From NCBI GenBank assembly GCA_024398995.1, contig JAKSIE010000002.1, positions 1-64,000 of the forward strand: a DNA stretch of 64,000 bases. Reading direction: 5' to 3'. A program made the translations under genes and the position numbers. The stretch is from Fibrobacter sp. (GTDB taxonomy: Bacteria; Fibrobacterota; Fibrobacteria; Fibrobacterales; Fibrobacteraceae). The notes under the pieces were generated by a model. That model had not been told where the DNA came from. It did not search any database and was given only the letters and a program-made list of their open reading frames with translations. Positions 15,427-39,219 of the stretch are shown one piece after another (positions within the stretch are counted from its first letter, which is position 1; every line of letters begins with the position of its first letter).

Positions 15427-15460
15427 ATCTTTGAATTTCGCTGAAATGCAGAAATAGAAC

Positions 15461-15487: not shown

Positions 15488-15504
15488 CAAATGTCGGCGC
15501 ATCC

Positions 15505-15774
15505 TCACCATAGAAGCGGTATGGCGCCTGGGGCGAGGCGCAAGCGCACTCCCATGCGTCTCGGCAGTACGAACACGAGTGTTCGTGTTGCTCTCGACTT
15601 TTGGGCGTTCTGCCCGTAGGCATAGTTCAGCACCTTCCCAAGGACATCGTGAATCGGGAACGTCGGATTCATCCCGACCTCTACTTTTGTTGTCATCCCG
15701 GGCATCGACCCGGCTGCAACACACTTAGGAACTTGTTTCTTAGTGTGGCTGGTCCCCGTAGGGGGAGGATCTCC
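15505..15774. repeat. Composite dispersed repeats C and B
   Basis: This 540-base gap before the AbiEi-like gene holds two repeat modules. Element C (15505-15666) matches 20263-20352 but carries a 72-base insertion (15536-15607) bounded by GGGCG on both sides. Inside the insert is a perfect palindrome, ACGAACAC-GA-GTGTTCGT. Element B (15707-15774) matches 19479-19546 and contains a near-perfect 28-base hairpin (CACACTTAG...CTTAGTGTG). Both copies lie next to CCCGG..GGATC motifs. Confidence 0.8.
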
Positions 15775-15822
15775 TTTTTTTTGGGGGGGGGTGTTGATAT
15801 GTATTATGTATTCCTTGTGAAA

Positions 15823-15958
15823 TGTTTACTTTTGTGTAAACAATATGAACAATATATTAACAGGAATTTGCTGAATTTTAATGAAAAATTAAAATTTGTA
15901 ACATTTGTTGTTGATTCTAACATTTTAAAATGTTATATTAAATGTTGATTGTTATAAT
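15823..15958 (+). promoter_or_regulatory. Palindromic operators before AbiEi-like gene
   Basis: Two palindromes lie upstream of the start at 15968: TGTTTAC-N6-GTAAACA (15823-15842) and the 18-bp perfect TAACATTTTAAAATGTTA (15918-15935). A TATAAT follows at 15953-15958. AbiEi-type proteins repress their own operon through inverted repeats, so these are operator candidates (inference). Confidence 0.5.
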
Positions 15959-15967
15959 GAGGCGGTG

Positions 15968-20823: not shown

Positions 20824-20847
20824 ATGACACTAGAGTGTCATTTTTTT
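20824..20847 (+). terminator. Hairpin with T-run before the MORC gene
   Basis: ATGACAC (20824-20830), TAGA loop, GTGTCAT (20835-20841), then seven T in all. It lies only 19 bases before the first gene of the island, so it either ends upstream transcription or attenuates the operon. A TTGACA (20763-20768) upstream and CATAAT (20801-20806) are possible promoter parts, though spacing is not standard. Confidence 0.6.
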
Positions 20848-20865
20848 AGCTTATTTTTAAATTAT

Positions 20866-22359: not shown

Positions 22360-25157
22360 TGCCTATTGATTTTAAGAAAATTGAAAATCTTCGTCGTTCT
22401 GCAAAATCACTTATTGAGATGAGCGGCATTAGTGATGACTTGTCAGAAGAAAAATTGGAAGACGTCATAAACAAATCTGCTCTTTTTATTGGAGCCGTTT
22501 TATTACCCGAAGAGTTTGAGGCAATAAAACGAGATTTGCAGTATCAGTATCAAGTTCGTTGTTCGCCGGGCCAAAGCATTTTGAATGATTATGATCAAGA
22601 AATGTGGTATGATGAAGCTAAGGCCGATATTGATCCTAAGTTTTGGACCCGCTATAAAGACTACTTAGTGGATGTTCAACAATTTAGTCCTAATGTTGTG
22701 AATACATTGGGGGACGACACACTCGATGGAAAATTGATGAATTATATTGGAAATCCTAAATCGGAAAAGGATTTCTTAAAGAGAGGGCTGATTATTGGTG
22801 ATGTTCAATCAGGAAAAACATCTACATATATCGGTTTGATGTGCAAGGCGGCTGATGCTGGTTATAAGGTCTTTATTCTTTTAACGGGAACCATTGAATC
22901 CTTGCGTACACAGACACAGGAACGTGTTGAAGAAGGGTTTGTTGGCGTTAACATGTCCGCAGATAATGTAGATGGAGTTCGCGTTGGTGTTGGTTTAGAT
23001 AACAAACCTTTGTTCGCGAAAGCAATGACGTCTAGAAAGCGTGATTTTACAGGGGATATTGACACAATTGCTGATAGTCTTGCAAATAACAACCAGGCAG
23101 TTGTATTTGTGATTAAGAAGAATATCACAACACTGAAAAAATTGACGGATTGGCTTGTAAAGTTAAATGCAGATGCTGTTACCAAGAAAATAAATGTTCC
23201 TATGTTGATGATTGATGATGAAGCGGATAATGCATCTATCAATACAAGCGGGGATAAGGAAGATCCTTCCAAGATTAACAAGGCTATTCGCAAACTTGCC
23301 AATGTTTTTACAAAATCGAATTATGTAGGATTTACTGCAACTCCGTTTGCTAATGTTTTCATTGATCCTCAAACAACTGAAGAAATGGAAAATGCAGATT
23401 TGTTCCCAGAGGATTTTATTGTCGCTTTGCCAACTCCGGACAATTATGTTGGTGCAACGAAAATCTTTTCTGAAGATGGAATCTTCCATAACCAGCTTGT
23501 TTATATAGAAGATGCAGGCAGTGAAATTGCTGACGGATGGTCCTTCTATTACAAACACAAGAAAGATTGGCGAAGTGATTTGCCTGATAGCTTAACTGAT
23601 GCGATTTATGCATTTTATATCGCAAATACACTTAGGGATTTAAGAGGCGACAATGATAAACATCGCTCTATGCTCGTGAATATATCACGATTTGTTGCGG
23701 TTCAAAAATATATCAAGGAGGAAATTGATGGTATTCATGCGGCTGCATATAGAGCGATAAAGTATAATTTGTCAGGTCTGTCTAGTGATTTGAGAGATCC
23801 AATTCTTAAACGAATTCACGATATTTTTGAGAAATATTATGCCAATGTTGAATTTGAATGGAGCGACGTTGCTAAAAATATGTTTAAGGCGATTGAATCC
23901 ATAAAAATTCGCGTTGTTAATAGTTCAAAGTCTTCTGAAAAATTGGTTTATCCTAAAAAGGAATCGTTGCGGGTTATTGCAATTGGTGGCTTGGCTCTTT
24001 CTCGTGGATTGACGTTGGAAGGACTTATTACAAGCTATTTCTATAGAAATACAAGTACATATGATGTATTGATGCAGATGGGACGATGGTTTGGTTATCG
24101 TAGAAATTACGAGGATTTATTCCGAATTTGGACCGCAGAAAGTTCTTCTGATTGGTATGCTGAAATTGCAGAAGCTACAGAAAGGCTTAAACGTGATATG
24201 AATGTGATGCGAGACAAAGATCTCAAGCCGAAAGATTTCGGTATTCGTGTTAGAAATAATTCTAATGAACTGCAGATTACTTCCTATAACAAAATGCGTA
24301 ATACTACGGATGAGTACGATGCAAATGGATTCTTTGGAGGAAGTGTCGAAACTCAGTATCTTGAAGCGGATGCAAATAAGCAAATAAAGAATTTTGAAAC
24401 TGTAAAAACTTTGGTCGATGATTGTGTTTCCGGTGGGATTCCTTTTGTACGTGTGAATAGCTCTTGTTATAAGGGCCGTTACATGCTTCAGGATGTTCCT
24501 AAAAGTTCTATAAAAAAGATGCTGAAGAATTTTTCTGTTTCTCCATACTGTTTAGATTTTGATCCAAATCAGATTACAAAATTCTTGAGTGAATGCAACG
24601 ACCCCTCGATAGACTATTTTGATGTTGCCTTTATGGATGGCTCAGATGATTCGGCTATAGTAAATATTGGTGGAGTAGATATTCATCGAGTTGTAAGAAA
24701 TAAATGTAAGATTGATTCGGAAAGAGAAAAAATAAATATTGGCTCTAGAGGCAAACTAAGCGGTCCTGGAGATGGTATGGTTGGCATTGTTGATGTTGAA
24801 GCAAAACTTGCTAAAGATATCATTGAACAAGCTAGAGAAAATTTTAAGGTTGCTCATAGTTTACCAAAGGATACCAAAACCTTGCCTACAGATGCATGGT
24901 TTGAATTCGTTAAAGATCGTAAACCATTGGTGATGATATACCTTATGAATGTAAATCTTGGCGAAGATCAAAAGAATAACCAAAAATTTGCTGATATAAA
25001 AGAGGAACTGGGCGAAAATGTTCCTTTTACTGCAATAATGATGGGCTTCCCGCAAAACGATGAATGGTCTTCTATGAGTTTTACCAGATATAAGGCAAAT
25101 AAGTCATACAACTATTATGAACTCCATAAGGATGATGACGTAGAAGAGGTTGAATGA
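22359..25157 (+). CDS. Z1-domain helicase-like protein
   Basis: A 932-residue superfamily II-type ATPase carrying the Z1 domain (PF10593). Walker A GDVQSGKTSTYIGLM, Walker B LMIDDEADNASI, motif III FTATPFANVFID and an arginine-finger motif QMGRWFGYRR are all present. The N-terminal ~130 residues and C-terminal ~250 are helical/mixed and unassigned. Z1 proteins accompany MORC ATPases, DUF4420 nucleases and AIPR proteins in predicted R-M loci, where they should supply DNA translocation. ATG 22359 overlaps the previous stop (TGATG), with GAGGTG upstream. Intact motifs argue that the protein is active. Confidence 0.88.
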   Translation: MPIDFKKIENLRRSAKSLIEMSGISDDLSEEKLEDVINKSALFIGAVLLPEEFEAIKRDLQYQYQVRCSPGQSILNDYDQEMWYDEAKADIDPKFWTRYKDYLVDVQQFSPNVVNTLGDDTLDGKLMNYIGNPKSEKDFLKRGLIIGDVQSGKTSTYIGLMCKAADAGYKVFILLTGTIESLRTQTQERVEEGFVGVNMSADNVDGVRVGVGLDNKPLFAKAMTSRKRDFTGDIDTIADSLANNNQAVVFVIKKNITTLKKLTDWLVKLNADAVTKKINVPMLMIDDEADNASINTSGDKEDPSKINKAIRKLANVFTKSNYVGFTATPFANVFIDPQTTEEMENADLFPEDFIVALPTPDNYVGATKIFSEDGIFHNQLVYIEDAGSEIADGWSFYYKHKKDWRSDLPDSLTDAIYAFYIANTLRDLRGDNDKHRSMLVNISRFVAVQKYIKEEIDGIHAAAYRAIKYNLSGLSSDLRDPILKRIHDIFEKYYANVEFEWSDVAKNMFKAIESIKIRVVNSSKSSEKLVYPKKESLRVIAIGGLALSRGLTLEGLITSYFYRNTSTYDVLMQMGRWFGYRRNYEDLFRIWTAESSSDWYAEIAEATERLKRDMNVMRDKDLKPKDFGIRVRNNSNELQITSYNKMRNTTDEYDANGFFGGSVETQYLEADANKQIKNFETVKTLVDDCVSGGIPFVRVNSSCYKGRYMLQDVPKSSIKKMLKNFSVSPYCLDFDPNQITKFLSECNDPSIDYFDVAFMDGSDDSAIVNIGGVDIHRVVRNKCKIDSEREKINIGSRGKLSGPGDGMVGIVDVEAKLAKDIIEQARENFKVAHSLPKDTKTLPTDAWFEFVKDRKPLVMIYLMNVNLGEDQKNNQKFADIKEELGENVPFTAIMMGFPQNDEWSSMSFTRYKANKSYNYYELHKDDDVEEVE

Positions 25158-26068
25158 TGAATTATAAGTCTAGATTTTCAGAATTTTCTAAACCATCATT
25201 CTTTTCAAGAGTGGATGCCGACCATGTGCTGAATTGGCATATTGGTGTTGATGGTCTTGGCAGAAAATCTATTGAATATCGCTCAAAATTTACTGCCAGA
25301 AAAGTCGTAGGGACGAAGTATATTGAAGTATCTCAATATAAAAAAGAGGAATACTGTACGATTCGTTTTTCCCTGTGTAATAAAGAACTTGAGGATTTGT
25401 TCTACAAGTTCTGTGAAGACATGGTAGAGAAGACCCGATGTGTTCAAGATCCTTTGCTCGGTTATAATGCAATAATTGAAAGATTTACTCTTTGGAAAAA
25501 GCTGTTTAACCAATCTCAGGAAGGATTGCTTTCAGAAGAGAAGATAATGGGACTTATTGGAGAAATCATTTTCTTGCGAGATTATCTTTTCTCGTTATAT
25601 GGAATAGAAAAATCTGTTGTTGGCTGGAGTGGCCAAGATTTGACTCGCAAAGATTTCTCATATGATGAGATGTGGTATGAGGCGAAGGCAGTTTCTTATA
25701 ATAGAGATTCTGTTTCCATTTCATCTTTGGAGCAGTTGGATTCTGATGTTCTTGGTGAACTTGCCGTAGTGTTACTAGAAAAAATGAGTCCCTCGTTTGC
25801 AGGAGTATCTTTAAATAATCTTGTAATAAATGTATGCGATAAGATTGAGTCTGTGGAAGCAAAGGAATTGTTTCTTGCAAAGGTTGAATCTAGTGGCTAT
25901 GCATACAATGTGGCTTATGACGGCTATGTGTATGCATTGAAAAGTATAAAACGCTATTCTGTGAATGATGAATTTCCTAGAATGACTCCTAGAACGGTCC
26001 CTGAGGGAATTGTGTCTGCAAAGTATGAAATATCACTTCCTTTACTAAAAAAGTTTGAAATTTTCTAA
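25157..26068 (+). CDS. DUF4420 PD-(D/E)XK nuclease-like protein
   Basis: A 303-residue protein of the PF14390 (PD-(D/E)XK motif) family, the likely DNA-cutting subunit of the MORC/Z1 system. The nuclease core is visible: GLIGEIIFLRDYL supplies the first acidic residue, and FSYDEMWYEAKAVS is the D-x(n)-E-x-K signature, preceded by GWSGQD. Two ATG codons overlap the Z1 stop (25154 and 25157); 25157 has better spacing from AAGAGG. It is the third gene of a tight same-strand block (12 bases to AIPR). The function comes from family and context, since no strand-cleavage evidence exists here. Confidence 0.82.
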   Translation: MNYKSRFSEFSKPSFFSRVDADHVLNWHIGVDGLGRKSIEYRSKFTARKVVGTKYIEVSQYKKEEYCTIRFSLCNKELEDLFYKFCEDMVEKTRCVQDPLLGYNAIIERFTLWKKLFNQSQEGLLSEEKIMGLIGEIIFLRDYLFSLYGIEKSVVGWSGQDLTRKDFSYDEMWYEAKAVSYNRDSVSISSLEQLDSDVLGELAVVLLEKMSPSFAGVSLNNLVINVCDKIESVEAKELFLAKVESSGYAYNVAYDGYVYALKSIKRYSVNDEFPRMTPRTVPEGIVSAKYEISLPLLKKFEIF

Positions 26069-26080
26069 AGCAGGTGTGCT

Positions 26081-28327
26081 ATGAGCGACTATCAAGAGTA
26101 CAAAAGAGAATTCCTTCAAACTCTTCGAAATGATTCCGCAATAAACGGAACCGATACTGAAGATGAATTCATCAATCACGTGTTGGATTTGTTGAAAGAC
26201 TATGATGACCTACAGTCTCCTGAACGAGTTAATTGTGGGGAAACTCGTTGCTCAAAAAATAGGGTGATGCGTATTGACGGCTATAGTATAGATGATGCTG
26301 ATCATAGCTTAATCCTGTTTATAAGTGATTTTGAGGATTCTTTTGATACGCCAAATTTGACAATGAGTCGTATTGATGAATTGTATTGGAAAATGTTTTA
26401 TTTTCTTGACGAAACGTGTAATGGAAAAATTAGCGACTATTTTGATGACTCGGATGACATGTTGAAGGTAGCTTCTTTTGTAAGAAGTAAACTTAATATT
26501 GCGAATTCAGATGACCCTGAAAAAATATTGAAAATTAGGTTTTTGATTCTCACAAACAAGGAATTGGATTCCAAGTTGATGAACAAGGACTTGTTGCAGT
26601 CTTCAGAAAAAAAGTCTAAAGCTCGTAGGAAAACGAAGAGTACGAAAAAAATCAAGAAGGATGATTTTAAAGGGCTGCCATTGGAAATTAATTTGTGGCA
26701 TTTAGAACGAATCTATGATCAAGAAAAATTAAACCTTACAGAAACGGTGCACATTGATTTTGAAAAAGATTATGGTACCGAGGGTATCCCTTGTATTAAG
26801 GGTAATATTGGTGATAACTTAGGTTATCAAGCGTATATAGCTATTATTCCTGGAAAATTATTGGCAGATATTTACATAGATTATGGCAGTAAAGTGTTGG
26901 AGGGGAATGTTCGTGCATTTTTAGGGACTGGCGGAGCCAAAAGTGTGAATAACGGTATTCGAAAAACCATTAACAATGAACCTCAAAATTTCTTTACTTA
27001 CAATAATGGCATAGCTGCGACCGCTGCAAATATTGAATTTGTCAAGCAGGATTCTCAACTCTATATAACAGAGATTGATGACCTTCAAATTATAAATGGT
27101 GGTCAAACAACTGCATCTTTGGCGGAGGCGGTTTTAAAGAAAACGAACCAGGGCCTTGAAGGGATCTTTGTTCCAATGAAATTGACTGTCATTGAAGATC
27201 GAGAAACTGAAAATGTTGATGGAATAAGCTTTTATGATCAAATGGTTCAGGATATCGCAAAATATGCTAATAGTCAAAATAAGGTGACTGCGGCGGATCT
27301 GTTCTCTAATGATCCTTTCCATATCCGAATGGAAAAAATGTCAAAGAGTTATCTCGCTCCTCCTAAGAGGTTTGCCGTGCCCACTGCGTGGTATTATGAA
27401 CGATCACGCAAAAAGTATAAACAAGAACAGATAAAACTGCGTGGCGAAAATTTAAAACGGTTCCTTGCGAAATATCCTAAGGAACAGATTGTCACAAAGG
27501 AACAGCTGGCTATGTATTTAACAACTGTTGAGGGGAAGCCTCACATAGTGGCAAAGGGCAAGAATTTTGTTATTAAGGAGTTTAATCAGAATATCAGAGA
27601 AACATTTGGGAAGAACAAAAATTTATTTAATGAATTTTTCTTTCATAAAAGTATCGCTGCTACGATCATTTTTAGAACGGTAGATGATTATTTGGAAGAA
27701 AATAAGGATAGCGCCAAAAAGCCTACTGGGTTCTGGTATAAGGCTGGTGGCTTTAAAATGGATATTGTGCCATATTCTATTGCAAAGATTTTGGATTGTT
27801 TGCCGCAGGGGATGAGTATTGACTGGGAATCTATTTGGCAACGACAAAAAATTGGTCCGGGATTTATGAAGGAAATTGCCCGTGCAACAAAATTCACAAA
27901 TGATTTCATTTGCGATTGTAATGGAATGATAGTTTCTGAATACTGCAAAAAAGCTTCAACCTGGGAATCCTTTAAAGAGGTTAAATACACGCTCTCCCAA
28001 GCGTTTGTAGATGAACTTATTCCATATTCAGTGGTGAAAAAACAGGAACAAGAGGCTTCCAAAGAAAAAAAAGAAGGTGATGGACTGAAATCACTGGTTG
28101 AATTCGTACAATTAGGCCCTGTTTATTGGAATGCAATTTCGGAATTGGCTGAGAAGCATGGCGTTGGAACGAACTCTGAGAAGACGAGTCTTTTGAAGGC
28201 GATTGTCTTTACAAAGAAGGCTGAATTGCCAAAATCGAACTCTGTACCGATGAATGTTCAGTTAATGATGAATGATTGTTATGCGATTAAGGAAAAGTTA
28301 GTATCTTTGGGCGTAAAGATACGATGA
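26081..28327 (+). CDS. AIPR family protein
   Basis: A 748-residue protein of the AIPR (abortive infection phage resistance, PF10592) family. Diagnostic motifs are NFFTYNNGIAATA and IINGGQTTASLAEA, with YANSQNKVTAADLFSNDPFH and a basic central part. AIPR proteins recur with Z1, DUF4420 and MORC genes and in some abortive infection systems; their biochemical activity is unclear. It follows DUF4420 by 12 bases and its TGA overlaps the ATG of the methyltransferase (ATGA), so it is in the same operon. Length is typical, and no motif loss is seen. Confidence 0.88.
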   Translation: MSDYQEYKREFLQTLRNDSAINGTDTEDEFINHVLDLLKDYDDLQSPERVNCGETRCSKNRVMRIDGYSIDDADHSLILFISDFEDSFDTPNLTMSRIDELYWKMFYFLDETCNGKISDYFDDSDDMLKVASFVRSKLNIANSDDPEKILKIRFLILTNKELDSKLMNKDLLQSSEKKSKARRKTKSTKKIKKDDFKGLPLEINLWHLERIYDQEKLNLTETVHIDFEKDYGTEGIPCIKGNIGDNLGYQAYIAIIPGKLLADIYIDYGSKVLEGNVRAFLGTGGAKSVNNGIRKTINNEPQNFFTYNNGIAATAANIEFVKQDSQLYITEIDDLQIINGGQTTASLAEAVLKKTNQGLEGIFVPMKLTVIEDRETENVDGISFYDQMVQDIAKYANSQNKVTAADLFSNDPFHIRMEKMSKSYLAPPKRFAVPTAWYYERSRKKYKQEQIKLRGENLKRFLAKYPKEQIVTKEQLAMYLTTVEGKPHIVAKGKNFVIKEFNQNIRETFGKNKNLFNEFFFHKSIAATIIFRTVDDYLEENKDSAKKPTGFWYKAGGFKMDIVPYSIAKILDCLPQGMSIDWESIWQRQKIGPGFMKEIARATKFTNDFICDCNGMIVSEYCKKASTWESFKEVKYTLSQAFVDELIPYSVVKKQEQEASKEKKEGDGLKSLVEFVQLGPVYWNAISELAEKHGVGTNSEKTSLLKAIVFTKKAELPKSNSVPMNVQLMMNDCYAIKEKLVSLGVKIR

Positions 28328-29577
28328 AATTTCTTGATCTTTTCGCTGGCGCAGGTGGTCTTTCCGAAGGGTTTGTTCGGGAAGGTTTTGAGCCTGTTGC
28401 TCACGTTGAGTTGTGGGATGCTGCAAGTTATACACTAAAAACAAGGGCTGCTTTTCATTATTTAGAAGATTTTGGTCAAAGAGAGATTTACGCGCAATAT
28501 TTAAGGGGCGAAATTACTCGAGATGATCTCTATTCCCATGTTCCACAAAATGTCCTCGATTCTGTGATAAATAAGGAAATTGGGGAGAATACAATTGCAT
28601 CCATTTTTGAAAAAATAGATGCGTTGAAGGGAAATGATGATATTGATTTGGTTGTTGGTGGACCTCCATGCCAGGCCTACTCTTTAGTTGGGCGAGCTCG
28701 TGATCCGAATGGGATGCGTGATGATCACAGAAATTACCTTTTTCAATATTATGCTCAGTTCCTTGAAAGATACCAGCCTAAGTATTTTGTTTTTGAAAAT
28801 GTTCTTGGGTTGTTGAGTGCTAAAGATGAAAATGGTATGCGTTATTTTGATTTGATGCGTCAGAAATTTCATGAAATTGGCTATCGTGTAGATTATAGAG
28901 TGTTGTCTGCTGACAATTATGGTGTTCTGCAAAAACGTAAACGCATTATTTTGATTGGGAAGAAAACAGAAGAAAATTTTCAGTATCCTGAACCGGATCC
29001 GGTTGAACATCAGTATACTGTTAAAGCGGTATTTTCTGGTTTGGCTTCGTTGCGTGCTGGAGAAGGTGATGTGTACGGGCGTCCATTAACTGTAGGGCGT
29101 CATAGTCAATGGTTGGAAGAATTTGGTGTATTGTCCGCATATCCCGTAACCTTTCACTATGCTCGGCCTAATTGCGATAGAGACCTTGAAATATACAGAC
29201 GCGTTGTTGATTTGTGGAATAATGAAAGAAGAAGGCTTGATTATAGTCAATTGCCTGAAGAACTGAAAACACACGCAAATCAGAAAACATTTTTAGATCG
29301 ATTTAAAGTTGTTGCTGAAACAGAATCAGCTTCGCAAACAATTGTTGCTCATATTTGCAAAGATGGTCACTATTATATCCATCCAGATATTGAACAGAAC
29401 CGTTCTATTACACCGAGAGAAGCTGCCCGATTGCAGACTTTCCCGGATGATTATTTCTTTGAAAGTGCTTCTGGAAAGCCTAGTCGCACCGATGCATTTA
29501 AACAGATTGGAAATGCAGTGCCTGTTCTTTTGGCTCAAAAAATCGCTGCAAAATTAAGGGAGGTCTGGGATGACTAG
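28324..29577 (+). CDS. DNA (cytosine-5)-methyltransferase, first of two
   Basis: C5 DNA methyltransferase that protects host DNA by methylating its target. Motif I FLDLFAGAGGLSEGF, motif IV GGPPCQAYS with the catalytic Cys, motif VI FENVLG, motif VIII QKRKRI (a variant of QxRxR), and motif X IGNAVPVLLAQ are all in order; the target recognition region lies about 215-345. Length 417 is normal. It overlaps the AIPR gene by 4 bases and the next gene by 8, so it belongs in the MORC/Z1 operon as the modification partner. It is not closely similar to the second methyltransferase at 33112, so the two should read different sites or strands. Confidence 0.93.
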   Translation: MKFLDLFAGAGGLSEGFVREGFEPVAHVELWDAASYTLKTRAAFHYLEDFGQREIYAQYLRGEITRDDLYSHVPQNVLDSVINKEIGENTIASIFEKIDALKGNDDIDLVVGGPPCQAYSLVGRARDPNGMRDDHRNYLFQYYAQFLERYQPKYFVFENVLGLLSAKDENGMRYFDLMRQKFHEIGYRVDYRVLSADNYGVLQKRKRIILIGKKTEENFQYPEPDPVEHQYTVKAVFSGLASLRAGEGDVYGRPLTVGRHSQWLEEFGVLSAYPVTFHYARPNCDRDLEIYRRVVDLWNNERRRLDYSQLPEELKTHANQKTFLDRFKVVAETESASQTIVAHICKDGHYYIHPDIEQNRSITPREAARLQTFPDDYFFESASGKPSRTDAFKQIGNAVPVLLAQKIAAKLREVWDD

Positions 29578-31669
29578 TACAAAAGCTTTGTTGCAATTTA
29601 AAACTCGAGCTCGCTTGTTGGCTCAACTTGGTGAACAATTGATTAAGGATGAAGCGATTGCGTTGGTAGAATTAGTGAAAAATGCTTACGATGCCGATGC
29701 TCGTTGTTGCAATGTAATTCTTGAAAAATTAGATGTTGAAGGACAATCATCTATCTTAATTGAAGATGATGGTTGTGGAATGAATTACGATACCATAAAA
29801 AATGTATGGCTTGAGATAGGAACATCAAATAAATTTGATAAAAAGAAAGCCGGGAAAAAAACACCTGTTCTAGGAAGAAGTGTTCTTGGAGAAAAGGGAA
29901 TAGGTCGTTTTGGAGCACACCGTTTAGGTGAATGTATAGAGATAATTACAAGAGCTAAGGATTGTCAAGAATGTGTTCTAACGATTGATTGGAGCAGTCT
30001 CGACAAAGTTAAATATATTGAAGACATCCCTATTTCGCTTTTAGAAAGACCTCCTAAACATTTTCGTCATAAGACCGGAACTTGTATTAAGATTACAAAG
30101 TTAAAAGATAAATGGGAAAGAGGAAAAGTACGAAGTATAGCACGTTCAATAAACTCTCTCAATTCACCGTATTGTTCTGAGGATTCGTTTTCCGTTTCAA
30201 TATCGGTTTCTAATGATTGGTTGTCAAACATCCTTTCTTATGAAGATGTGAAGGGTATGTCTATGTATTCGTTTGATTTAACGATGAATGGAGGTCAAAT
30301 TACCTCATTTTCGTATGATTTTAAACCGTATACTACGATGAATAATGTTGAAGGTAGGCATGTTTCGTTGGATCAATTGGCGGCAACGACGATAATTGAT
30401 TCTAACAATAATAAAATTGATCTAGAAAAGTCTAAGGTTGGTTCGATTCGTATAGAGGGACGAATTTTTGATTTGGAAACGCGAATTTTAAGTCTTGGAT
30501 TGACTTCTGGGGCTAGTGATGTAAAAGAGTACCTTCGAAACAATGGTGGAGTTCGTGTTTTTAGAGACAATATGCGCGTTTGGGATTATGGCGAAGTTGG
30601 AAATGATTGGTTGGGTTTGGATGCGCGTCGAATAAACGACCCTTCAAGAACCATTAGCAACAGACTGTTATTGGCGGCGGTTTATTTAAATGGAGACAAA
30701 AGTGATGGCCTTGTTGAGAAAGCAAATAGAGAGGGGTTTGTTGATAATGCTGCATTTAAGATTTTTCAGGATGCATGTCGCTTTGCCATTCTAAATGTAG
30801 AAGTTTTACGTAATTCTGATAAAGATCGTATTAGGGAAGTTTACAAGAAAGATCCTCAACCGGGAAAAAATGTTTCGGAATCAATCGAAGATCTTCGTAC
30901 TATTTTGAAAAAAAAGATAAAGGATGAGAAGCTTCTGCACTCTCTAAACCAAAAATTGGATTTAATTTCGGATAATTATTCACGTACTGTGGAAAATTTA
31001 ATGAAGAGTGCTGGAGCTGGCCTAAATTTGACATCCGTTCTACATCAAGTTGAAAAAATAGTGAAAAATTTGAAATATAACCTTACGAAGAACGTCGAGT
31101 TGGATGCAGTTGTATCGGACATGAGCTTGTTGTCGGATCTTGTTGAAGGATATAGTGTTTTAACTCGCAATTCTAGAGTAAAGGAACGAGATGTTGTTCC
31201 TTTATTGGCTCAAGGGAAAAAAAATGTTCGGCTTCGATTGAATGCCCACAGAATTACTTTTGTTATGAGTGAATCTTGCGTTGCCAAGACTTATTATGGT
31301 TTATATTCAGACAATTTATTGATGAATGTTGTTATGAATATTGTTGATAATTCGATTTGGTGGCTTTGTTACAAGGATGTTGAAAATCCCGAAATTTATG
31401 TTGATGTTCGGTATAAGGGTGAATCATATTTGAGTGTGGTTTTTGCAGATAATGGTCCTGGATTTGCTCTTGGTAAGGATGAACTGACGAAACCATTCGT
31501 TTCTGCAAAGCCTGCTGGTTTAGGTATGGGTATTGGATTGCATCTTTCAAAAGAAATTATGGAATCTATGGGAGGAGAAATTCTTTTTCCTGATTATAAA
31601 GATGTTGATGTTCCTGAAAAGTATTGTTGTGGAGCAATTGTTGAACTTTTGTTAAAAAGGAAAAAGTGA
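29570..31669 (+). CDS. Protein with two GHKL ATPase modules
   Basis: A 699-residue protein with two separate GHKL folds. The N-terminal one is MutL/Hsp90-like: ALVELVKNAYDADA (N-box, N38), IEDDGCGM (about 64-71) and GEKGIGRFGAHRLG. The C-terminal one is histidine-kinase-like: LLMNVVMNIVDNSIWW, FADNGPGF and GLGMGIGLHLSKEIMESMGG. Between them, about 430-520, is a helical region (LNQKLDLISDNYSRTVENLMKSA) that could play the dimerisation part of a kinase, though I see no clear phospho-His H-box. It overlaps the methyltransferase upstream and the receiver-like gene downstream. ATG 29570 follows GGGAGG. Likely a signalling or DNA-clamp component; exact role unknown. Confidence 0.82.
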   Translation: MTSTKALLQFKTRARLLAQLGEQLIKDEAIALVELVKNAYDADARCCNVILEKLDVEGQSSILIEDDGCGMNYDTIKNVWLEIGTSNKFDKKKAGKKTPVLGRSVLGEKGIGRFGAHRLGECIEIITRAKDCQECVLTIDWSSLDKVKYIEDIPISLLERPPKHFRHKTGTCIKITKLKDKWERGKVRSIARSINSLNSPYCSEDSFSVSISVSNDWLSNILSYEDVKGMSMYSFDLTMNGGQITSFSYDFKPYTTMNNVEGRHVSLDQLAATTIIDSNNNKIDLEKSKVGSIRIEGRIFDLETRILSLGLTSGASDVKEYLRNNGGVRVFRDNMRVWDYGEVGNDWLGLDARRINDPSRTISNRLLLAAVYLNGDKSDGLVEKANREGFVDNAAFKIFQDACRFAILNVEVLRNSDKDRIREVYKKDPQPGKNVSESIEDLRTILKKKIKDEKLLHSLNQKLDLISDNYSRTVENLMKSAGAGLNLTSVLHQVEKIVKNLKYNLTKNVELDAVVSDMSLLSDLVEGYSVLTRNSRVKERDVVPLLAQGKKNVRLRLNAHRITFVMSESCVAKTYYGLYSDNLLMNVVMNIVDNSIWWLCYKDVENPEIYVDVRYKGESYLSVVFADNGPGFALGKDELTKPFVSAKPAGLGMGIGLHLSKEIMESMGGEILFPDYKDVDVPEKYCCGAIVELLLKRKK

Positions 31670-33069
31670 TGATTCGAAATAATACGCAAATTTTGATTAT
31701 TGATGATGTTTACGAAGAAGTTCGAAATTTGATATCTGTTTTGGCGAAAAACGGATTGTCATACGTATATAATGATGGGTCTGAAAAAATGCGGCCTAAA
31801 AAAAAATTAAAATATACAGGTGTAAGATTTGTTGTTCTCGACATCAATATTACGAAAGTTACGAAGGGCCTTCCAGATGAGGTGAAAGGAGCTAAGCTAG
31901 CGGATTTGTTGACATCTTGTATTGCTGCAGATAACGGCCCTATTTTTATCTTATTTTGTACAAATGATGAATCGGTTGTTGATGCTGTGAAAAAAAATTT
32001 GTTAAGAACAGAATTAACTCTTGTCGGATCATTATTACTTGAAAAAGAGAATGGTTCTGTTGGAAAAAAGGCCCTAGATGAGTTAAACAAAGCTTTGGAT
32101 GGCTCTGATTTGCCGGAATCGTTCAATTTCTTTTTATCGTGGGAACAGAATGTGGATAAGGCAAGATCTTTATTTGTTCATGATTTGGCGACTCTGTGTC
32201 CTATGCTCAATGATGATTTGGAAAATCGGATTGTGAGATGGGATGAGGAAATGAAACGACTTCTAGGAAATCTTGCTGTAGCATACACAGGACAGGAATG
32301 GAAGAAGATAAAAACAGATTCCAAAATACCTGATTATGCTACATGCATGCTTAATCAAAGTTTTGTTGATAAGATTTCAAAAAATGGAAAAACGTTGACG
32401 ATTCCCTCAGAGAATGATTTTACATCTATCTCTATAGATGCTTTAGCAAAAATAAATACGTCTCTTTTTTTAGAAAAAATTATTGATGAGTTTAAAGTTG
32501 ATACTGGACGCGTTGCTTATGCTATAGATGAACAGATGTTGGGAATGATAAAGAAGAGTGTATTAAATAAAGATTATATTGAGAAGGCACATGCAAGCTT
32601 AATATATGCTGTAATAACACCACAATGCGATTTAGCACATCCTAGGTATTTGCGTAGCGAAAATACATCTTCTTCGGGCAAAAAAATTGATTCGTGGCAT
32701 CGAATTGTTTGGGGAATAGAGATTGAGGTTGATGATGATCGGTACGGGGATATGTTTCAAAAGGCCTCGGACTATTGTCAACGAATAAATTTTATTGACG
32801 ATTTGCAATCTGTAAGTGTTGAGGATAAGAAAAAATTGAAAAAGTATATACAGAATTGTAAACCTGAAAGCATTTTTTCAACAAGTCCTTTAATTAATGT
32901 TTTGGGAAAGAAGTGTATTTGGGTGTTTCACTTTGCTTCTGTGACAACTAAGTGTTTAAAAGAAAAACAAAGGTTTAAGTACCAAATGTCTAGAGAACTT
33001 GTTTTTGATTTGCAATCTAAACTGGCTAATCATGTCAATCGTTTGGGAAACAACATGCTTGAATGTTAA
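31669..33069 (+). CDS. Receiver-like protein paired with the double-GHKL ATPase
   Basis: A 466-residue protein. The first ~130 residues look like a response-regulator receiver domain: TQILIIDDVYEEVRNL gives the acidic pair (D12, D13), VRFVVLDINITKV gives the likely phospho-acceptor D58, and IFILFCTND and SLLLEKENG sit where the conserved Ser/Thr and Lys strands fall. There is an insert between strands 2 and 3. The remaining 330 residues are unrecognised and contain VITPQCDLAHPRYLR, a pattern with Cys and His. ATG 31669 is preferred to GTG 31666 because AAGGAAAAAG is well placed. The overlap with the GHKL gene marks a two-gene module. No output domain of a known transcription factor is visible. 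Confidence 0.66.
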   Translation: MIRNNTQILIIDDVYEEVRNLISVLAKNGLSYVYNDGSEKMRPKKKLKYTGVRFVVLDINITKVTKGLPDEVKGAKLADLLTSCIAADNGPIFILFCTNDESVVDAVKKNLLRTELTLVGSLLLEKENGSVGKKALDELNKALDGSDLPESFNFFLSWEQNVDKARSLFVHDLATLCPMLNDDLENRIVRWDEEMKRLLGNLAVAYTGQEWKKIKTDSKIPDYATCMLNQSFVDKISKNGKTLTIPSENDFTSISIDALAKINTSLFLEKIIDEFKVDTGRVAYAIDEQMLGMIKKSVLNKDYIEKAHASLIYAVITPQCDLAHPRYLRSENTSSSGKKIDSWHRIVWGIEIEVDDDRYGDMFQKASDYCQRINFIDDLQSVSVEDKKKLKKYIQNCKPESIFSTSPLINVLGKKCIWVFHFASVTTKCLKEKQRFKYQMSRELVFDLQSKLANHVNRLGNNMLEC

Positions 33070-33111
33070 GATGGCATAAATTGACATTTGGTATTTTCTA
33101 TCATTGATTCT

Positions 33112-34410
33112 ATGGCAACTGTAAAAAAAGACATTCAGGAAACGAACAAGAAGATTTCTCACGTTAAAAAGATTATTAAGAAGCGTGTTGAATCTCTAGA
33201 AGAACGTGATATTCCCCAGACTCCGCTTAGTACAGAAGAAACCTGGCGCTCGGCGGAATTTTCCAAGCCTCAAAAGACGGTTCGTATTGGAACCATGTTT
33301 AGTGGCATTGGCGCTATAGAACATGCGTTTCAAAGATTAGGATTGAAGCATAAGATTGCGTTTGCTGGTGATATTGAACCGAAATGTAAAACAAGTTATT
33401 TCGCAAATTACGATATAGCGGAAAAAGATTGGTTTACAGATATCCGTAATTTTGATGCCAAACCGTACGCTGGTAAAGTTGATTTTATCATCGGTGGTGC
33501 ACCTTGCCAAGCTTTCTCAATGGTTGGAAAGAGGCTCGGCTTTGAAGATGCTCGCGGAACACTGTTCTATGAGTTTGCAAGAGTCGTTAAAGAAACGTCT
33601 CCTAAGGTATTTTTGTTTGAGAATGTTAAGGGTTTGTTAAATCATGACAATGGCCGTACATGGCATGTGATGCATGATATTTTTGAGGAGCTCGGTTATA
33701 CTGTTTACTTCCGTGTTTTGAATAGTAAGGATTATGGTATTCCTCAACATCGTGAACGCGTATATTGTCTAGGCTTTAAGAAAAAGGTGGATTTTGAATT
33801 TCCCGCACCTATCTCACTTGAATATACGATGTATGATTTTTTGGAGGATTACATTGATTCCAAGTATTTCTTGAAGGAAAAGGGAATTAAATTCGTCACC
33901 AGCCATAAGAATAGAGAAAAATGCTATACTCAAATTAATGGTGACGTAGCACTTTGCCAAAAAAGAAATCAACAGTTTAACTGGCACGGTGATTTCGTTT
34001 ATCATCCTGATTCGAAGGATACTCCTAGTAATGAGGCTTTCGATGAATTCATCTTTGATGTTAAGGATGTCGAAGAAAAGTATTATCTGTCAGAAAAAGT
34101 GGCCAAGTATGTTTTAGCGGGTGGTACAAAGAACTTTAAAACATCTACAAAGACCGATTTGGAAGTTGCACGACCGCTTTTGCATTCTATGCATAAGATG
34201 CATCGTGCTGGAGTCGATAACTATGTAACCCATAAGGGGCGTATTCGTAAGCTGACGCCTAGAGAATGCCTGCGCCTAATGGGGTTTAAGGATTCTTTTA
34301 AAATCGTTGTCTCCGATACGGCTGCTTATCAACAAGCGGGAAATAGCATTGTTGTTGATGTTTTAATCGCGATCCTTAAGCAGATGGACATCACTAAATA
34401 CGGAGTATAG
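33112..34410 (+). CDS. DNA (cytosine-5)-methyltransferase, second
   Basis: C5 methyltransferase with motif I IGTMFSGIGAIEHAF, motif IV GGAPCQAFSMVG (catalytic Cys), motif VI FENVKGL, motif VIII PQHRERVYCLG and motif X YQQAGNSIVV. A basic N-terminal extension of about 60 residues (KKDIQETNKKISHVKKIIKK) precedes motif I. Start is ATG 33112; the TTG 24 bases earlier lacks support. It is separated from the receiver-like gene by 42 bases but is only one base from the HNH gene. It is therefore most likely the modification enzyme of the HNH/McrB/LlaJI-type restriction block downstream. Confidence 0.92.
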   Translation: MATVKKDIQETNKKISHVKKIIKKRVESLEERDIPQTPLSTEETWRSAEFSKPQKTVRIGTMFSGIGAIEHAFQRLGLKHKIAFAGDIEPKCKTSYFANYDIAEKDWFTDIRNFDAKPYAGKVDFIIGGAPCQAFSMVGKRLGFEDARGTLFYEFARVVKETSPKVFLFENVKGLLNHDNGRTWHVMHDIFEELGYTVYFRVLNSKDYGIPQHRERVYCLGFKKKVDFEFPAPISLEYTMYDFLEDYIDSKYFLKEKGIKFVTSHKNREKCYTQINGDVALCQKRNQQFNWHGDFVYHPDSKDTPSNEAFDEFIFDVKDVEEKYYLSEKVAKYVLAGGTKNFKTSTKTDLEVARPLLHSMHKMHRAGVDNYVTHKGRIRKLTPRECLRLMGFKDSFKIVVSDTAAYQQAGNSIVVDVLIAILKQMDITKYGV

Positions 34411-34411
34411 A

Positions 34412-35398
34412 ATGCTTATTGCTGGAAAGTATACTTTTGCAGATGTCTATGACAGTGTCATTACCATTCCGGACTGTTTTGTTTTGCGAAAAAATAAAAT
34501 TGGTTCCGGAAATGGTGAAGCAAAATTGTATTTCGGTTCTAAAGTTTCGATGAGAAATTTTTTTGGTGAGGAAGGCTTTTTTGCAAGCTGTTTTCTGCTC
34601 AAGAGCGACCTCATTGCCTATATGGATACGATTAAGGCTGAATATCTTAATCCTTCTTATGACTATAGCGGTAAAGATTCTTTTGCTTCATTATGGCAAG
34701 AACGTCGGAAAAAAGTTGAATCACTTCCAGATGTAATAAGTTTTTCGATTCAGGATCAAAATCAAATTGGTGGCCCACGTGGTTACGTAAATTCTGGCGA
34801 TGAAGGTTATTATTTGATAAGGGAATTGTCTTTACCCTTAGTTAGTTATATCTCGGCAATGCGTGTGGAAGCTCTTGATGGAACTTCCTGTTTTTATTTG
34901 AAGCTTTTTGTTGATTTTGATGCCATAGAAATGAAGAAAAATGGTCCTTTGGTTCTGAACTATGGTAAAAAGGCTGATTCGGTGCATGAAAAGACGGCTA
35001 AGTATGACGCTACAGAAAAGGATTCTAACAAGGGAAGAATTGGGCAGGAAAAGTATCGTAATGCTTTGCTTGAAGAATGTCCGTTCTGTCCAATAACGAT
35101 GATTAACGATGAACGTTTATTAATTGCTAGCCATATCAAACCGTGGGCCGTTTGTGATGAGAAAGAACGTATTGACCCAAAGAATGGATTCATGCTTTCT
35201 CCATTGTACGATCGTCTTTTTGACCAGGGTTTTATCACATTTACAGATGATAAAAAACTTTGGGTATCGCAATGGTTGAGCCCCAAAAATGTTCAACGAA
35301 TTGGTTTGAAAAATGATATGTACATTCAGATGCTCCCCATAGATGAAAAGAGAATTGAATATTTAGAGTATCATAGAAAATGTGTCTTTAGAGGATGA
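34412..35398 (+). CDS. HNH restriction endonuclease
   Basis: A 328-residue protein with a C-terminal HNH nuclease domain. ECPFCPITMINDERLLIASH IKPW gives a CxxC zinc pair and the first catalytic His of an SHIKPW motif (HNH_2, PF13391, typical of R-M nucleases). KNGFMLSPLYDRLFDQGFI follows with the Asn/His-equivalent region. The N-terminal 200 residues are unassigned and probably recognise DNA. It lies one base after the second methyltransferase, so the pair would form a type II-like R-M unit. The start ATG 34412 is preceded by GGAG. No frame damage. Confidence 0.85.
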   Translation: MLIAGKYTFADVYDSVITIPDCFVLRKNKIGSGNGEAKLYFGSKVSMRNFFGEEGFFASCFLLKSDLIAYMDTIKAEYLNPSYDYSGKDSFASLWQERRKKVESLPDVISFSIQDQNQIGGPRGYVNSGDEGYYLIRELSLPLVSYISAMRVEALDGTSCFYLKLFVDFDAIEMKKNGPLVLNYGKKADSVHEKTAKYDATEKDSNKGRIGQEKYRNALLEECPFCPITMINDERLLIASHIKPWAVCDEKERIDPKNGFMLSPLYDRLFDQGFITFTDDKKLWVSQWLSPKNVQRIGLKNDMYIQMLPIDEKRIEYLEYHRKCVFRG

Positions 35399-35401
35399 TT
35401 T

Positions 35402-37066
35402 ATGAAGCGACTTTTGCCCCAAAACAAGACTTTTTCGTCACTAGTGCTGGATATTTTTTCTTTTTTGTATGAAAAAGATGAATTTAAATCGTTTGAAACA
35501 TATTCAAAAGAATCTATTCCAAAAACAGGTATGCCGGGTGAGACTATAGTACAGCTCTATGCTGTAAACAGTGGCCATCGACTTACAGGGCTTTTTCTAA
35601 AAAGTTCTCTTTATTCTGTACAAGAACGAAATAGGCGTAGAGCGCCTCGTTGGTTTGAAAAACCTTTTTCATTTAAAGGCGAACAGGTCTTTTTGAGCAG
35701 TCAGTGGAATTCTGAAGGTGAATATCAATTAACGTTGGATGATCTAAACTTTTTTTTGAAACTGTGCTATTACAACAAGAATGAGGATTCTTATTATAAA
35801 GTTCTAAAGAATGATGAATTATTTGAATTTTACGAGGTGAAAAAAGGTGAAATAAACGAAGACGAAATTATAAATCAGGAAAAGAGTAGTTGTGTGAATG
35901 TTGATTTTTCGGTGTCTCAAAAAATTTTCTTTGGAACTCCTGGCACAGGAAAGTCCTACAAAGCTAACGAGTTTGTAAATGATGTTGTCCTTTCTGTTTA
36001 TAAACGAGATGAACGGAGAGAAAAGTTTGCGCAATCGGGAATGCCGAAGGCGTCTCATTACGCAGATGTGCTGAATAATGCTGATTCGTTTGGGGTTGAC
36101 ATCTTTGGTATTGACCATGTGTCTGAATTAGAAGAACATCTGAAATCTTGCGAAGGCGATGACAAGGTGAAAAATCCGCGTCATAGCGCATTACGTTCTT
36201 ATATTGAATTTCTGAAGATCTCAAAAGTATATCGTACCACATTCCATCCTGATTACGACTACGCTCAGTTTGTAGGCTCGTACAAGCCTAAAAAGGAAAA
36301 TGGGCAGATTACCTATTCCTTCGTTCCTCAGGTTTTTGCAAAGGCTTATGCGGCTGCATGGAAAAATTTGAATCAGCCAGTTTATCTTGTGATTGAAGAA
36401 ATCAATCGTGGTAACTGCGCTCAGATTTTTGGCGACTTGTTCCAGTTGCTTGATCGTAAGAACGGTGAATCTGAATATCCTATTAATGCGGATGCCGATT
36501 TTGGACAATGGCTTGTTGATGAAGCTAAGGTCCCTAAACACGAATATGACGAAAATGGATGCGTGAAAATTATGCTCCCGCCCAACTTCAATATTCTCGC
36601 AACCATGAACACTAGTGACCAGTCTTTGTTCCCTATGGATAGCGCCTTCAAGCGCCGCTTTGACTGGGAATATGTGCCTATTGATTATAAGAAGACAGAG
36701 GCTGATTTTACTATTGTAATTGGTGACAAGAAATATCGCTGGCTTGATTTCCTTAAAAAAGTGAATGCTGATATCTATATCGCTACTGAAAGTGAAGACA
36801 AGCAGATGGGCGAATTCTTCGTTAAGCCTAGTGACGGAAAAACTATAGATTTACCTACCTTCTGTTCCAAGGTGCTTTTCTATCTCTGGGATTCTGTTTA
36901 TAAGGATGATGACCAGAATAAAAAGGTTTTCCGTTTTGACTGGAAATTTGATGGTGAAGAGAAAAACCGTCCCGTAACATTCCAATCTCTATTTGAAGAT
37001 GAAAAGACGAAGATTGCTATCGTCCAGAAGATGATGGAAAACTTGGACGTTCCTGAAAAACAATGA
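35402..37066 (+). CDS. McrB-like AAA+ NTPase
   Basis: A 554-residue motor subunit of a McrBC/LlaJI-type restriction enzyme. The N-terminal ~175 residues are a DNA-recognition-type region. The AAA+ domain follows with Walker A FFGTPGTGKSY, Walker B YLVIEEINRGNC, and NFNILATMNTSDQSL with the McrB-type MNTxD signature used for GTP. FKRRFDWEYVPI is the sensor/arginine region. It begins three bases after the HNH gene, and its TGA overlaps the nuclease start (ATGA), so the two subunits are coupled. GTP rather than ATP use is inferred from the MNTSD motif. Confidence 0.9.
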   Translation: MKRLLPQNKTFSSLVLDIFSFLYEKDEFKSFETYSKESIPKTGMPGETIVQLYAVNSGHRLTGLFLKSSLYSVQERNRRRAPRWFEKPFSFKGEQVFLSSQWNSEGEYQLTLDDLNFFLKLCYYNKNEDSYYKVLKNDELFEFYEVKKGEINEDEIINQEKSSCVNVDFSVSQKIFFGTPGTGKSYKANEFVNDVVLSVYKRDERREKFAQSGMPKASHYADVLNNADSFGVDIFGIDHVSELEEHLKSCEGDDKVKNPRHSALRSYIEFLKISKVYRTTFHPDYDYAQFVGSYKPKKENGQITYSFVPQVFAKAYAAAWKNLNQPVYLVIEEINRGNCAQIFGDLFQLLDRKNGESEYPINADADFGQWLVDEAKVPKHEYDENGCVKIMLPPNFNILATMNTSDQSLFPMDSAFKRRFDWEYVPIDYKKTEADFTIVIGDKKYRWLDFLKKVNADIYIATESEDKQMGEFFVKPSDGKTIDLPTFCSKVLFYLWDSVYKDDDQNKKVFRFDWKFDGEEKNRPVTFQSLFEDEKTKIAIVQKMMENLDVPEKQ

Positions 37067-39219
37067 TTTTCCTTTTTGAACAGTTCCCTTACTCCATGGA
37101 GTATCTGAAATCTGTCCTGCCTTTAGATAAGGAGGGGCGTTTTAAGGATTTGCCTAACGGCTTCGTGACTCGCGATGGTAAGCTGGATGGTGTAGGGTAT
37201 TTGTTCAATGGATCCCGACTCGGAGGCCGGGATGACAAGGCGGGTGACAGAATTGTATTTGTTCTGCCTAAGGTGTTTTTGGATTCTTCGGCTCGGAATG
37301 ATGCGGCTAAAGTTTCTGCTTTTGGGCAGGATGTTCCTCATGATAAAAATTTTGAGCTGAACGGAGATCACAAGGATTTCCTGGCCAACCTTTCTTTGTG
37401 GGTGTGTTCTTCTATTGGTAAATATCGCGAGGATTTTCCTGACGACAAGAGCATGGAGGCTCCAACCGCCCGTGGCTTCAGTACAGACAAGGCTTGCCCC
37501 ACGCTGATCGACGTGAAGAACGCCATGGAGCGTTTTTACGAGGAGAACAAGAGTCTCTTTGTATTCGTGAGCAAGAATGTGCATAGCGGCAACAATCGCA
37601 TAGATTGGCGCAGGACCATGCGGAAGACTCCGTTTTTGCAGGGGGCTGGTTCTGCGGCGACACCGATTTATATGGAGTTGGTGAACAAGAAGAAGGTTTT
37701 CGATCTGGATGACCGTCTGATTGTGCTGTTCTTCTCCGCCATGAATTACATCGAGGAAACCTTTGGTTTCAAGATGCCCAAGTCGGAATTCTACGCCCCC
37801 ATGCGAGTGAACGAGTTCCGCCGCCTGCTGGGCCACCGCGGCATCATGGAGCTTCGCCGTATCAAGCACAAGTACTTTGCCGACAAGTTCCTCCGCCTCT
37901 ACAATATCATGAAGGCCTTCTTCGAATGGGGCGGCAACTTTAGCGCATGCGGCTTCGGCAGCGAATACCTGCTTACCAGCAAGTACAACAATGTGTTCGA
38001 GCACATGATCGACAAGCTGGTTGGCGATGACTTGCCTGCAATTCAAAAGAAGAAAAACTTGGACGATGGCAAGATTATAGACCATCTCTACAAGGAGAAC
38101 TCGTTAATCTTCAGCTCCGGCGAATCTGATAAGATTTGGCATATTGGTGATAGTAAGTACTATAGCGACCCCGAGGATATTCGTGGCCAGTCTATTGCAA
38201 AGCAGTTCACCTACGCAAAGAATATCATCCAGGATTTCTTTAGCCCTGGGTATGTAGATTCCTTGAACAAAGAGCCGGCAGAACGTAATATCGGAAATGT
38301 CCATCGCGGGGTGCGCTATCGCGATGACCTGACCGAAGGTTATTCCGTAACTCCTAATTTCTTCATTCGTGGCGAGGTTCCCGCCTATAATCAGGAACAG
38401 GGCAAGGAACAGTTCGGGGATTCCTATTTCAGAAATCCTGGTGTCGGAAATTATGAACTGATTCAGGAAGTAAAGGAGTCTGATACTTTTGATGATGGAG
38501 AAGGGGATAAGAATCGGAACATAAAGAATCATCTTTGGGAACATCGCAATCGCCAGTTCCAAAACCGCCTCTTCGATCGCGACACCCTTTTACTCCAGGT
38601 TTACAACGTTAACTTCCTGTATGTACTCAAGGCCTTTACTGCCAAGAGTTCCAGCCTCCGCACCGAATTCAAGCGCACCGCCCGCGAAAAATTCCGAAAG
38701 AACTTTTTGACGTTATTGGATGAGAAGTATGTTTTCTGGGCTGTGTATCCACGAAAAGAATCTCTAGATAATTTTGTGACGAATAATTTCCGGAAACTTC
38801 AAGGTAAGATGTTCCGTAGGGATGAATCGGATAACTTTATCATATTGGCCCTTGAAAAGGGTGCTGACAAAAATCCAGAGATTCTGACAGACGTCAAAAA
38901 AGTTGCAGATTTAATGTGGGTCGCGGTGGAAAAATTTATTGACGGCTCTGATGTGAATTGTCTTGAAGTTCGCGAAGTTGTTGATGGCCGATGGAACAAT
39001 CAAGATAACGGCTTCTATTTGAAGAAGGAAATCTTTGAGGAAAGAGTCTTGAACAATACGACTCTGCCCAAGAAACTTGTCGTGAAATCGCAAGATGGCA
39101 ATGCTGTTATACGAGAATCGTTGCTCAATGGTGGCGTAATTCCCGATTACTCGCCCAATGGTGAATACGGTGATGTAGATTGCTATTTCCTGCCGTGTAA
39201 ACAACGCCTTGACAAATAA
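37063..39219 (+). CDS. LlaJI/McrC-like restriction nuclease subunit
   Basis: A 718-residue partner of the McrB-like motor. A PD-(D/E)XK-like core is seen at WHIGDSKYYS (about residues 361-370), preceded by helical sequence (RLLGHRGIMELRRIKHKYF). The overall look is that of LlaJI-family (PF09563) or McrC-like nucleases, longer than usual. Near residue 50 the frame passes through a copy of the genome's dispersed GGATCCCG...CGGGATGACA repeat, read as GSRLGGRDDKAGD, without breaking the frame. Codons in 37.4-38.1 kb look GC-richer than in the rest of the island, suggesting a mosaic. The last nine codons plus the downstream RNA unit are duplicated 2.57 kb away (41762). Family call moderate; nuclease role from the McrB overlap. 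Confidence 0.75.
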   Translation: MIFLFEQFPYSMEYLKSVLPLDKEGRFKDLPNGFVTRDGKLDGVGYLFNGSRLGGRDDKAGDRIVFVLPKVFLDSSARNDAAKVSAFGQDVPHDKNFELNGDHKDFLANLSLWVCSSIGKYREDFPDDKSMEAPTARGFSTDKACPTLIDVKNAMERFYEENKSLFVFVSKNVHSGNNRIDWRRTMRKTPFLQGAGSAATPIYMELVNKKKVFDLDDRLIVLFFSAMNYIEETFGFKMPKSEFYAPMRVNEFRRLLGHRGIMELRRIKHKYFADKFLRLYNIMKAFFEWGGNFSACGFGSEYLLTSKYNNVFEHMIDKLVGDDLPAIQKKKNLDDGKIIDHLYKENSLIFSSGESDKIWHIGDSKYYSDPEDIRGQSIAKQFTYAKNIIQDFFSPGYVDSLNKEPAERNIGNVHRGVRYRDDLTEGYSVTPNFFIRGEVPAYNQEQGKEQFGDSYFRNPGVGNYELIQEVKESDTFDDGEGDKNRNIKNHLWEHRNRQFQNRLFDRDTLLLQVYNVNFLYVLKAFTAKSSSLRTEFKRTAREKFRKNFLTLLDEKYVFWAVYPRKESLDNFVTNNFRKLQGKMFRRDESDNFIILALEKGADKNPEILTDVKKVADLMWVAVEKFIDGSDVNCLEVREVVDGRWNNQDNGFYLKKEIFEERVLNNTTLPKKLVVKSQDGNAVIRESLLNGGVIPDYSPNGEYGDVDCYFLPCKQRLDK
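37207..37242 (+). repeat. Dispersed repeat inserted inside coding sequence
   Basis: The segment GGATCCCGACTCGG AGGCCGGGATGAC is the same inverted repeat that forms intergenic terminators at 10607-10631 and 12785-12806 (in reverse complement) and lies at 20577-20602. Here it is within the nuclease gene, read in frame. Confidence 0.7.

Follow-up and report, generated by a model that had tools for sequence, protein, structure and literature searches.

The locus described here raises the question of what is controlled by a pair of adjacent genes, lying between two cytosine methyltransferase genes of a Fibrobacter, of which one encodes two GHKL-type ATP sites in a single protein and the next encodes a receiver-like domain. 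The C-terminal part of a response regulator is usually a DNA-binding or enzymatic domain that serves adaptation. The window, namely the whole 64,000-nucleotide stretch that was analyzed, was examined together with related loci, predicted structures and the literature.

Gene Order and Conservation of the Pair

Both open reading frames were confirmed on the forward strand, on which all features of the island lie: protein 1, a GHKL ATPase with a histidine-kinase half (699 aa), is encoded at 29570..31669, and protein 2, a response-regulator-like protein, at 31666..33069. The two genes overlap by 1–4 nt, a good ribosome-binding sequence precedes each start, and the junction reads AAGGAAAAAGTGATGATT, in which the kinase stop codon TGA shares one base with the ATG at 31669. 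The regulator likely starts at this ATG (466 aa; 467 aa from the GTG at 31666), and therefore its acceptor residue is D58, or D59 when counted from the GTG. The start of the kinase gene overlaps by 8 nt the end of the gene for C5 cytosine methyltransferase 1, directly upstream (28324..29577; PF00145, E 1e-61), and C5 cytosine methyltransferase 2 is encoded 18 nt downstream of the regulator gene (33088..34410; PF00145, E 5e-82).

Further upstream, PADLOC and Pfam identified MzaB-, MzaC (Z1)-, MzaD (DUF4420)- and MzaE (AIPR)-like genes at 20824..28327, and downstream an HNH_2 endonuclease, a McrB-like AAA ATPase and a 718-aa partner protein are encoded at 34412..39219, in the same order as in loci L004 and L155. 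The former locus has two tandem HNH_2-like genes (L004:11086-13073) where the window has one. Altogether, about 12 same-strand genes with small gaps or overlaps run from 20824 to 39219 and include the pair; the GC content is about 36% at 21 to 36 kb, compared with 45–55% across much of the remaining window. The upstream block, with its MzaB–E-like genes and C5 methyltransferase, is similar to the MZA and MZA-like putative defense system (PMC9523054), whereas the kinase–regulator pair is in neither description; MzaA, a sigma factor, was not seen among the annotated flanking genes.

A scan with the kinase alignment, using one genome per species, yielded at least 557 relatives. The locus counts given here come from the best 80 of these, a choice that favors close relatives, in sequence collections that end at contig ends; they include Spirochaetota, Bacteroidota, Pseudomonadota, Planctomycetota, Acidobacteriota, Bacillota and others. 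Among these 80 loci, fetched by the kinase alone, the next gene matched the regulator profile in 73, with a median gap of 1 nt, and several of the unpaired loci were contig ends or broken open reading frames. Of the 80 loci, 67 have a C5 methyltransferase gene no farther than about 6 kb away; it is directly upstream in 36 loci and overlaps in 31. The pair is thus conserved elsewhere, and the earlier reading of a two-component-like module is supported by this pairing together with the receiver fold described below. The first-pass annotation had also placed the pair as an insertion between two methyltransferase/restriction blocks. Its position between them is correct, and a very different pair occupies the same slot in another genome of the genus; however, the term insertion fits poorly with a pair that belongs to a continuous same-strand run and whose upstream methyltransferase is its usual operon partner.

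Of 81 loci, 42 have Vsr genes and 12 have Z1 (MzaC-like) genes, the counts of nucleases being limited to the query set used. Since many loci also hold ordinary nucleases, it is possible that these provide the defense instead of the pair. Conjugative plasmids of rhizobia, Burkholderia and Campylobacter also carry the pair. The kinase is matched by dozens of plasmid records, and two conjugative Campylobacter plasmids (L029, L030) carry the kinase, the regulator and a C5 methyltransferase, possibly as a plasmid maintenance or defense module. In Acinetobacter baumannii (L114:3629-9657), a related pair, whose regulator has TQPCDL, lies beside convergent genes, one of which resembles by eye a DndC-type PAPS reductase.

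Domain Architecture of the Kinase

The two ATP sites that had been read from the letters of protein 1 were both significant in Pfam. The MutL/Hsp90-like site was matched by HATPase_c_3 at residues 30–157 (29657..30040; E 2.3e-21), and in the alignment of relatives its E34, N38, D66, G68 and G70 and the GEKG motif are invariant or nearly so. The histidine-kinase ATP domain was matched by HATPase_c (PF02518) at residues 583–673 (31316..31588; E 2.6e-16). Between them, a conserved GGVRVFRD..YGE..DW...EKxNREGF block at residues 326–391 (30545..30742), seen in the A2 and A4 alignments, is probably an S5-like transducer, a name that we infer.

In profile searches with A4, which was built from 64 kinase relatives, the N-terminus matched Hsp90 and MutL, and positions 485–682 matched the DHp and ATP domains of ZraS, ThkA and FixL with E-values of about 1e-15 to 1e-14. 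His492 (codon 31043..31045), the predicted phospho-acceptor of the DHp helix, is present in all 64 relatives and aligns with the phospho-accepting histidine (HE box) of these three kinases. The phospho-histidine of kinases usually has an acidic neighbor. The residue after His492 is Glu in 59 of the 64 relatives and Gln493 in the window, L031 and L109, and the window kinase may be weak because of this replacement. At the +4 position, K or R stands in 51 of 64, not the Thr or Asn of the HisKA phosphatase motif (HExxT/N); as judged by HisKA kinases in general, this suggests a kinase without phosphatase activity.

The N-terminal half of protein 1 also brings in the possibility that the pair itself supplies restriction in a restriction-modification system, with protein 1 as an ATP-dependent subunit like that of BbrUII/HgiDII, the C-terminus of protein 2 cutting or binding unmethylated DNA, and the receiver acting only allosterically. 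The first 200 residues do resemble these enzymes (91 bits, E 7e-26), the REase_II models of PADLOC match 59 of the 64 kinase relatives, and a methyltransferase is often directly upstream. However, the similarity to the BbrUII/HgiDII model (NF050001) is confined to residues 15–211, stopping after the ATPase module at 91 bits against a cut-off of 550, and the remainder of the protein is a histidine-kinase core. Further, a nuclease motif was not recognized in protein 2, whose predicted fold matches RNase/gyrase toxins, and we regard this explanation as unlikely.

The paraMORC GHKL ATPases described by Iyer et al. 2008 (PMC2292703) likewise have an N-terminal GHKL module in methylase, Vsr and helicase neighborhoods, but that description has neither a histidine-kinase half nor a receiver partner and mentions no receiver or response regulator. 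Concerning the signal, two kinase relatives carry a fused EcoRII N-terminal DNA-recognition domain (L085, E 7.5e-18; L105, E 2.8e-16), which favors DNA as the thing sensed. A stand-alone EcoRII-N protein is encoded close to the pair in Agrobacterium (L026:12753-13181).

The Receiver Domain of the Regulator

Protein 2 had no match in Pfam, NCBIfam or PADLOC, nor among plasmids, phages and viral contigs. The AlphaFold (AF2) model (pLDDT 85.5, pTM 0.80) consists of a receiver at residues 1–150 in GTG numbering (31666..32115), a helical linker at 151–256 (32116..32433) and a C-terminal domain. The best structural match of the receiver in the VIA search was AdeR at Z 10.8, with PmrA and CheY also at Z about 10–11, and the profile matched CheY-like chains. 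The proposed acceptor aspartate (codon 31840..31842) is retained in 55 of 55 relatives; the first residue of the acid pair is D in 54 of 55 and the second in 47 of 55, with T/S in 53 and K in 54 at the remaining positions. The receiver-like start of the second gene, with its DD pair and D58, is consequently borne out by both fold and conservation. In genome G008, the regulator gene is frameshifted inside the receiver (L157:6944-7867; L008:316-1239) and intact in other genomes; the idea that G008 has a receiver-less regulator was rejected, as the receiver is present and split by the frameshift.

These residues bear on another possibility, that the two proteins form a complex without phosphotransfer, in which the effector is gated mechanically by the GHKL clamp, with the receiver as the docking domain between them. 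The Gln beside His492 in the window, L031 and L109 and the lack of the phosphatase motif across the family would be compatible with such a complex. The invariance of His492 and of the acceptor aspartate, along with the nearly invariant T/S and Lys, would be hard to explain without phosphoryl chemistry, and we consider a purely mechanical mode very improbable.

The Output Domain of the Regulator

Because the fold search with the whole protein listed only receivers, the C-terminal output domain (residues 257–467; 32434..33066) was folded separately. The domain of the close relative L109, folded alone, gave a pLDDT of 91.6, and its 30 best matches in the VIA search were all of the CcdB/MazF/CptIN/ToxN/AbiQ type, the best at Z 8.3 over 102 of 104 residues, with unrelated chains beginning at Z 4.4. 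The best match in the viral library BFVD was a PemK/MazF toxin (prob 0.96, with an E-value of 0.07). As read from the model, the order is two β-strands, a short helix, four strands and a C-terminal helix, as in MazF save for two inserted helical segments. These data suggest a MazF/CcdB-like fold, which is modelled and whose Z-score is modest.

The sequence of the domain is its own. Its family has invariant G281, C321, D322 and R459, of which C321 and D322 belong to a TPxCD motif at residues 318–322 and R459 to an RxG motif at 459–461. The domain profile had no match among PDB sequences, and hhalign against 20 PemK-like proteins (PF02452) gave P 0.24, that is, no sequence-profile homology; the catalytic Arg/Thr of MazF are not evident in the output-domain alignment A5. 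An assignment to MazF by sequence was rejected on this basis. Therefore, while the predicted fold and the order of strands and helices resemble MazF, PemK, CcdB and ToxN, the domain, with its own invariant residues and no sequence homology to PemK proteins, should not be called MazF; it also differs from these toxins in being fused to a receiver. Given the negative profile comparison, the catalytic Arg/Thr that are not evident and a predicted model of modest Z, it might not be an enzyme.

Exchange of Outputs and of the Pair

Related regulators appear with other outputs. The regulators of L085, L092, L099 and L100 are short (about 240–260 aa) and have no TPxCD domain, and directly after each comes a gene starting FKDVGQGDS; the product passes the cut-off of the metallo-beta-lactamase model in L092, matches it weakly in L099 and L100, and in L085 only resembles the others. 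L111 encodes a 209-aa receiver-like protein, with HNH and N-6 methylase genes after it. Four genomes belonging to the same genus as the window (G033, G059, G431 and G432) have the receiver joined to a C-terminal part that bears RNxxAH or RNxxGH. Read from the motif, such RNxxxH ends resemble HEPN RNases and can be called HEPN-like, but a HEPN domain was not recognized by Pfam in the G033 regulator.

Regulators of the same genus in which RNxxxH replaces the TPxCD domain (L154:8843-9754, L159, L160 and L161) adjoin Mrr- or McrB-like genes. Elsewhere, a helicase gene directly follows the kinase gene (L110:1343-7418), and in another locus a short regulator, together with an Eco57I-type methylase, comes after the kinase (L084:5989-12257).

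The exchange of outputs is relevant to the proposal in PMC8011034 that such a system is regulatory, tuning the expression or activity of the neighboring restriction-modification genes. The linkage with these genes is consistent both in that report and here. However, a DNA-binding output domain was not recognized, the outputs are swapped with metallo-beta-lactamase, HNH and HEPN-like parts, as is typical of effectors, and in many fetched loci the methyltransferase is the sole recognized partner of the pair. A tuning role is, in our view, doubtful.

The pair itself can also be exchanged. Between the window and genome G056 of the same genus, methyltransferase 1, methyltransferase 2 and the HNH protein are 95.9%, 98.8% and 97.9% identical, whereas the proteins of the G056 pair (L155:7134-10353) are only 28.0% and 26.9% identical to those at 29570-33069. 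Nucleotide similarity ends at 29573 and returns at 33111, positions that coincide with the boundaries of the two genes. By this comparison, the kinase and regulator genes are replaced together as a unit, which argues for matched partners and for a pair separable from the methyltransferases.

Relation to Published Systems

It had been stated that no named system contains such a pair; this does not hold, because Bellieny-Rabelo et al. 2021 (PMC8011034) already described "two-component-like" genes, Response_reg_2 (PF19192) and HEF_HK (PF19191), linked to restriction-modification. In their arrangement, a protein with HATPase_c_3, DHp and HATPase_c is encoded beside a divergent receiver protein, with linkage to C5 methylases, Vsr and HNH_2; no other known domain was found in the regulator, and no effector was reported. 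The window pair shares the adjacent regulator-like and kinase-like genes, the HATPase_c_3, DHp histidine and HATPase_c order, the DD/D/T-S/K residues of the receiver, and the linkage to C5 methylase, Vsr and restriction genes. At the level of Pfam models they differ: the window proteins did not match PF19192 or PF19191 at E<=1, the 55 regulator relatives lack a PF19192 match, and only 1 of the 64 kinases matches PF19191 at E<=0.1. One relative, L108, does score above the HEF_HK cut-off in the expected region. PF19192 had no match in 30 genomes holding relatives, which themselves lack a positive control.

Genuine Response_reg_2 proteins were found in Vibrionaceae, and profile comparison linked them to the window family both in the receiver (E 1.5e-6) and in the C-terminal domain (hhalign score 62, E 1.8e-8; shuffled maximum 12.7), with a TPxCD...RxG core in common. 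Since Pfam misses the pair and profile comparison connects it, the window pair is best placed as a divergent branch of Response_reg_2/HEF_HK and not as a Pfam-defined member. The toxin-fold output is probably general for the Response_reg_2 family.

WonAB (PMC12137116), an ABC ATPase with a PD-(D/E)xK nuclease, was considered as a match and rejected. No experiment on the pair or on any family member turned up in the literature searches. The kind of pair is already known; as far as our searches show, there is no earlier description of the fold of the output domain, of its replacement by other types of effector or of the cassette exchange.

Possible Role of the Pair

Based on the architecture, pairing and linkage above, we would give an even chance to the pair being a soluble, methylation-coupled two-component phosphorelay whose output is toxin-like. 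In protein 1, the MutL/Hsp90-like ATPase would close on DNA, or on the DNA-bound methyltransferase encoded with it, and the closed protein would report foreign or undermethylated DNA. The histidine-kinase half would then be switched on and pass the phosphate of His492 to D58 of protein 2, whose phosphorylated receiver would release or activate the C-terminal domain with the predicted MazF/CcdB-like fold. This domain may halt growth, most likely through RNA cleavage or by acting as a poison of some essential target, and thereby limit infection, while the C5 methyltransferase of the operon would mark self DNA and keep the output off in normal cells.

A broader and more tentative reading, which we hold possible, is a widespread immune or suicide class in which a methylation-linked GHKL kinase phosphorelay feeds regulators with interchangeable toxin-type outputs (MazF/CcdB-fold, HEPN-like, or a partner metallo-beta-lactamase or HNH protein) that replace the restriction endonuclease, the pairs being swapped as cassettes while the methyltransferases on either side stay in place.

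The two genes may encode a switch by which the appearance of wrongly methylated DNA brings the cell to a halt. Fusion of a receiver to a toxin-fold domain, encoded together with a DNA methyltransferase, would unite two-component signaling, restriction-modification and abortive infection in one circuit. A published gene family without a function thereby gains a candidate effector, whose role is directly testable, and the cassette exchange within one genus offers a natural experiment on partner specificity.

Other Features of the Window

Just past the island, a protein with SLFN_AlbA_2, HATPase_c_4 and winged-helix domains is encoded at 39425-40882, with 96.5% identity in G056 over the 201 aa compared. 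At 2002-4803, three successive proteins carry the repeat DGKxYKTVKIGxQxWMAxNLNY and resemble the Fibrobacter major paralogous family. The region 13835-17745 encodes an ImmA/IrrE-like protein with an HTH and a HELGH metallopeptidase motif and, farther along, an HTH gene with a nucleotidyltransferase-like gene after it; by eye, these two genes have the look of an AbiE pair.
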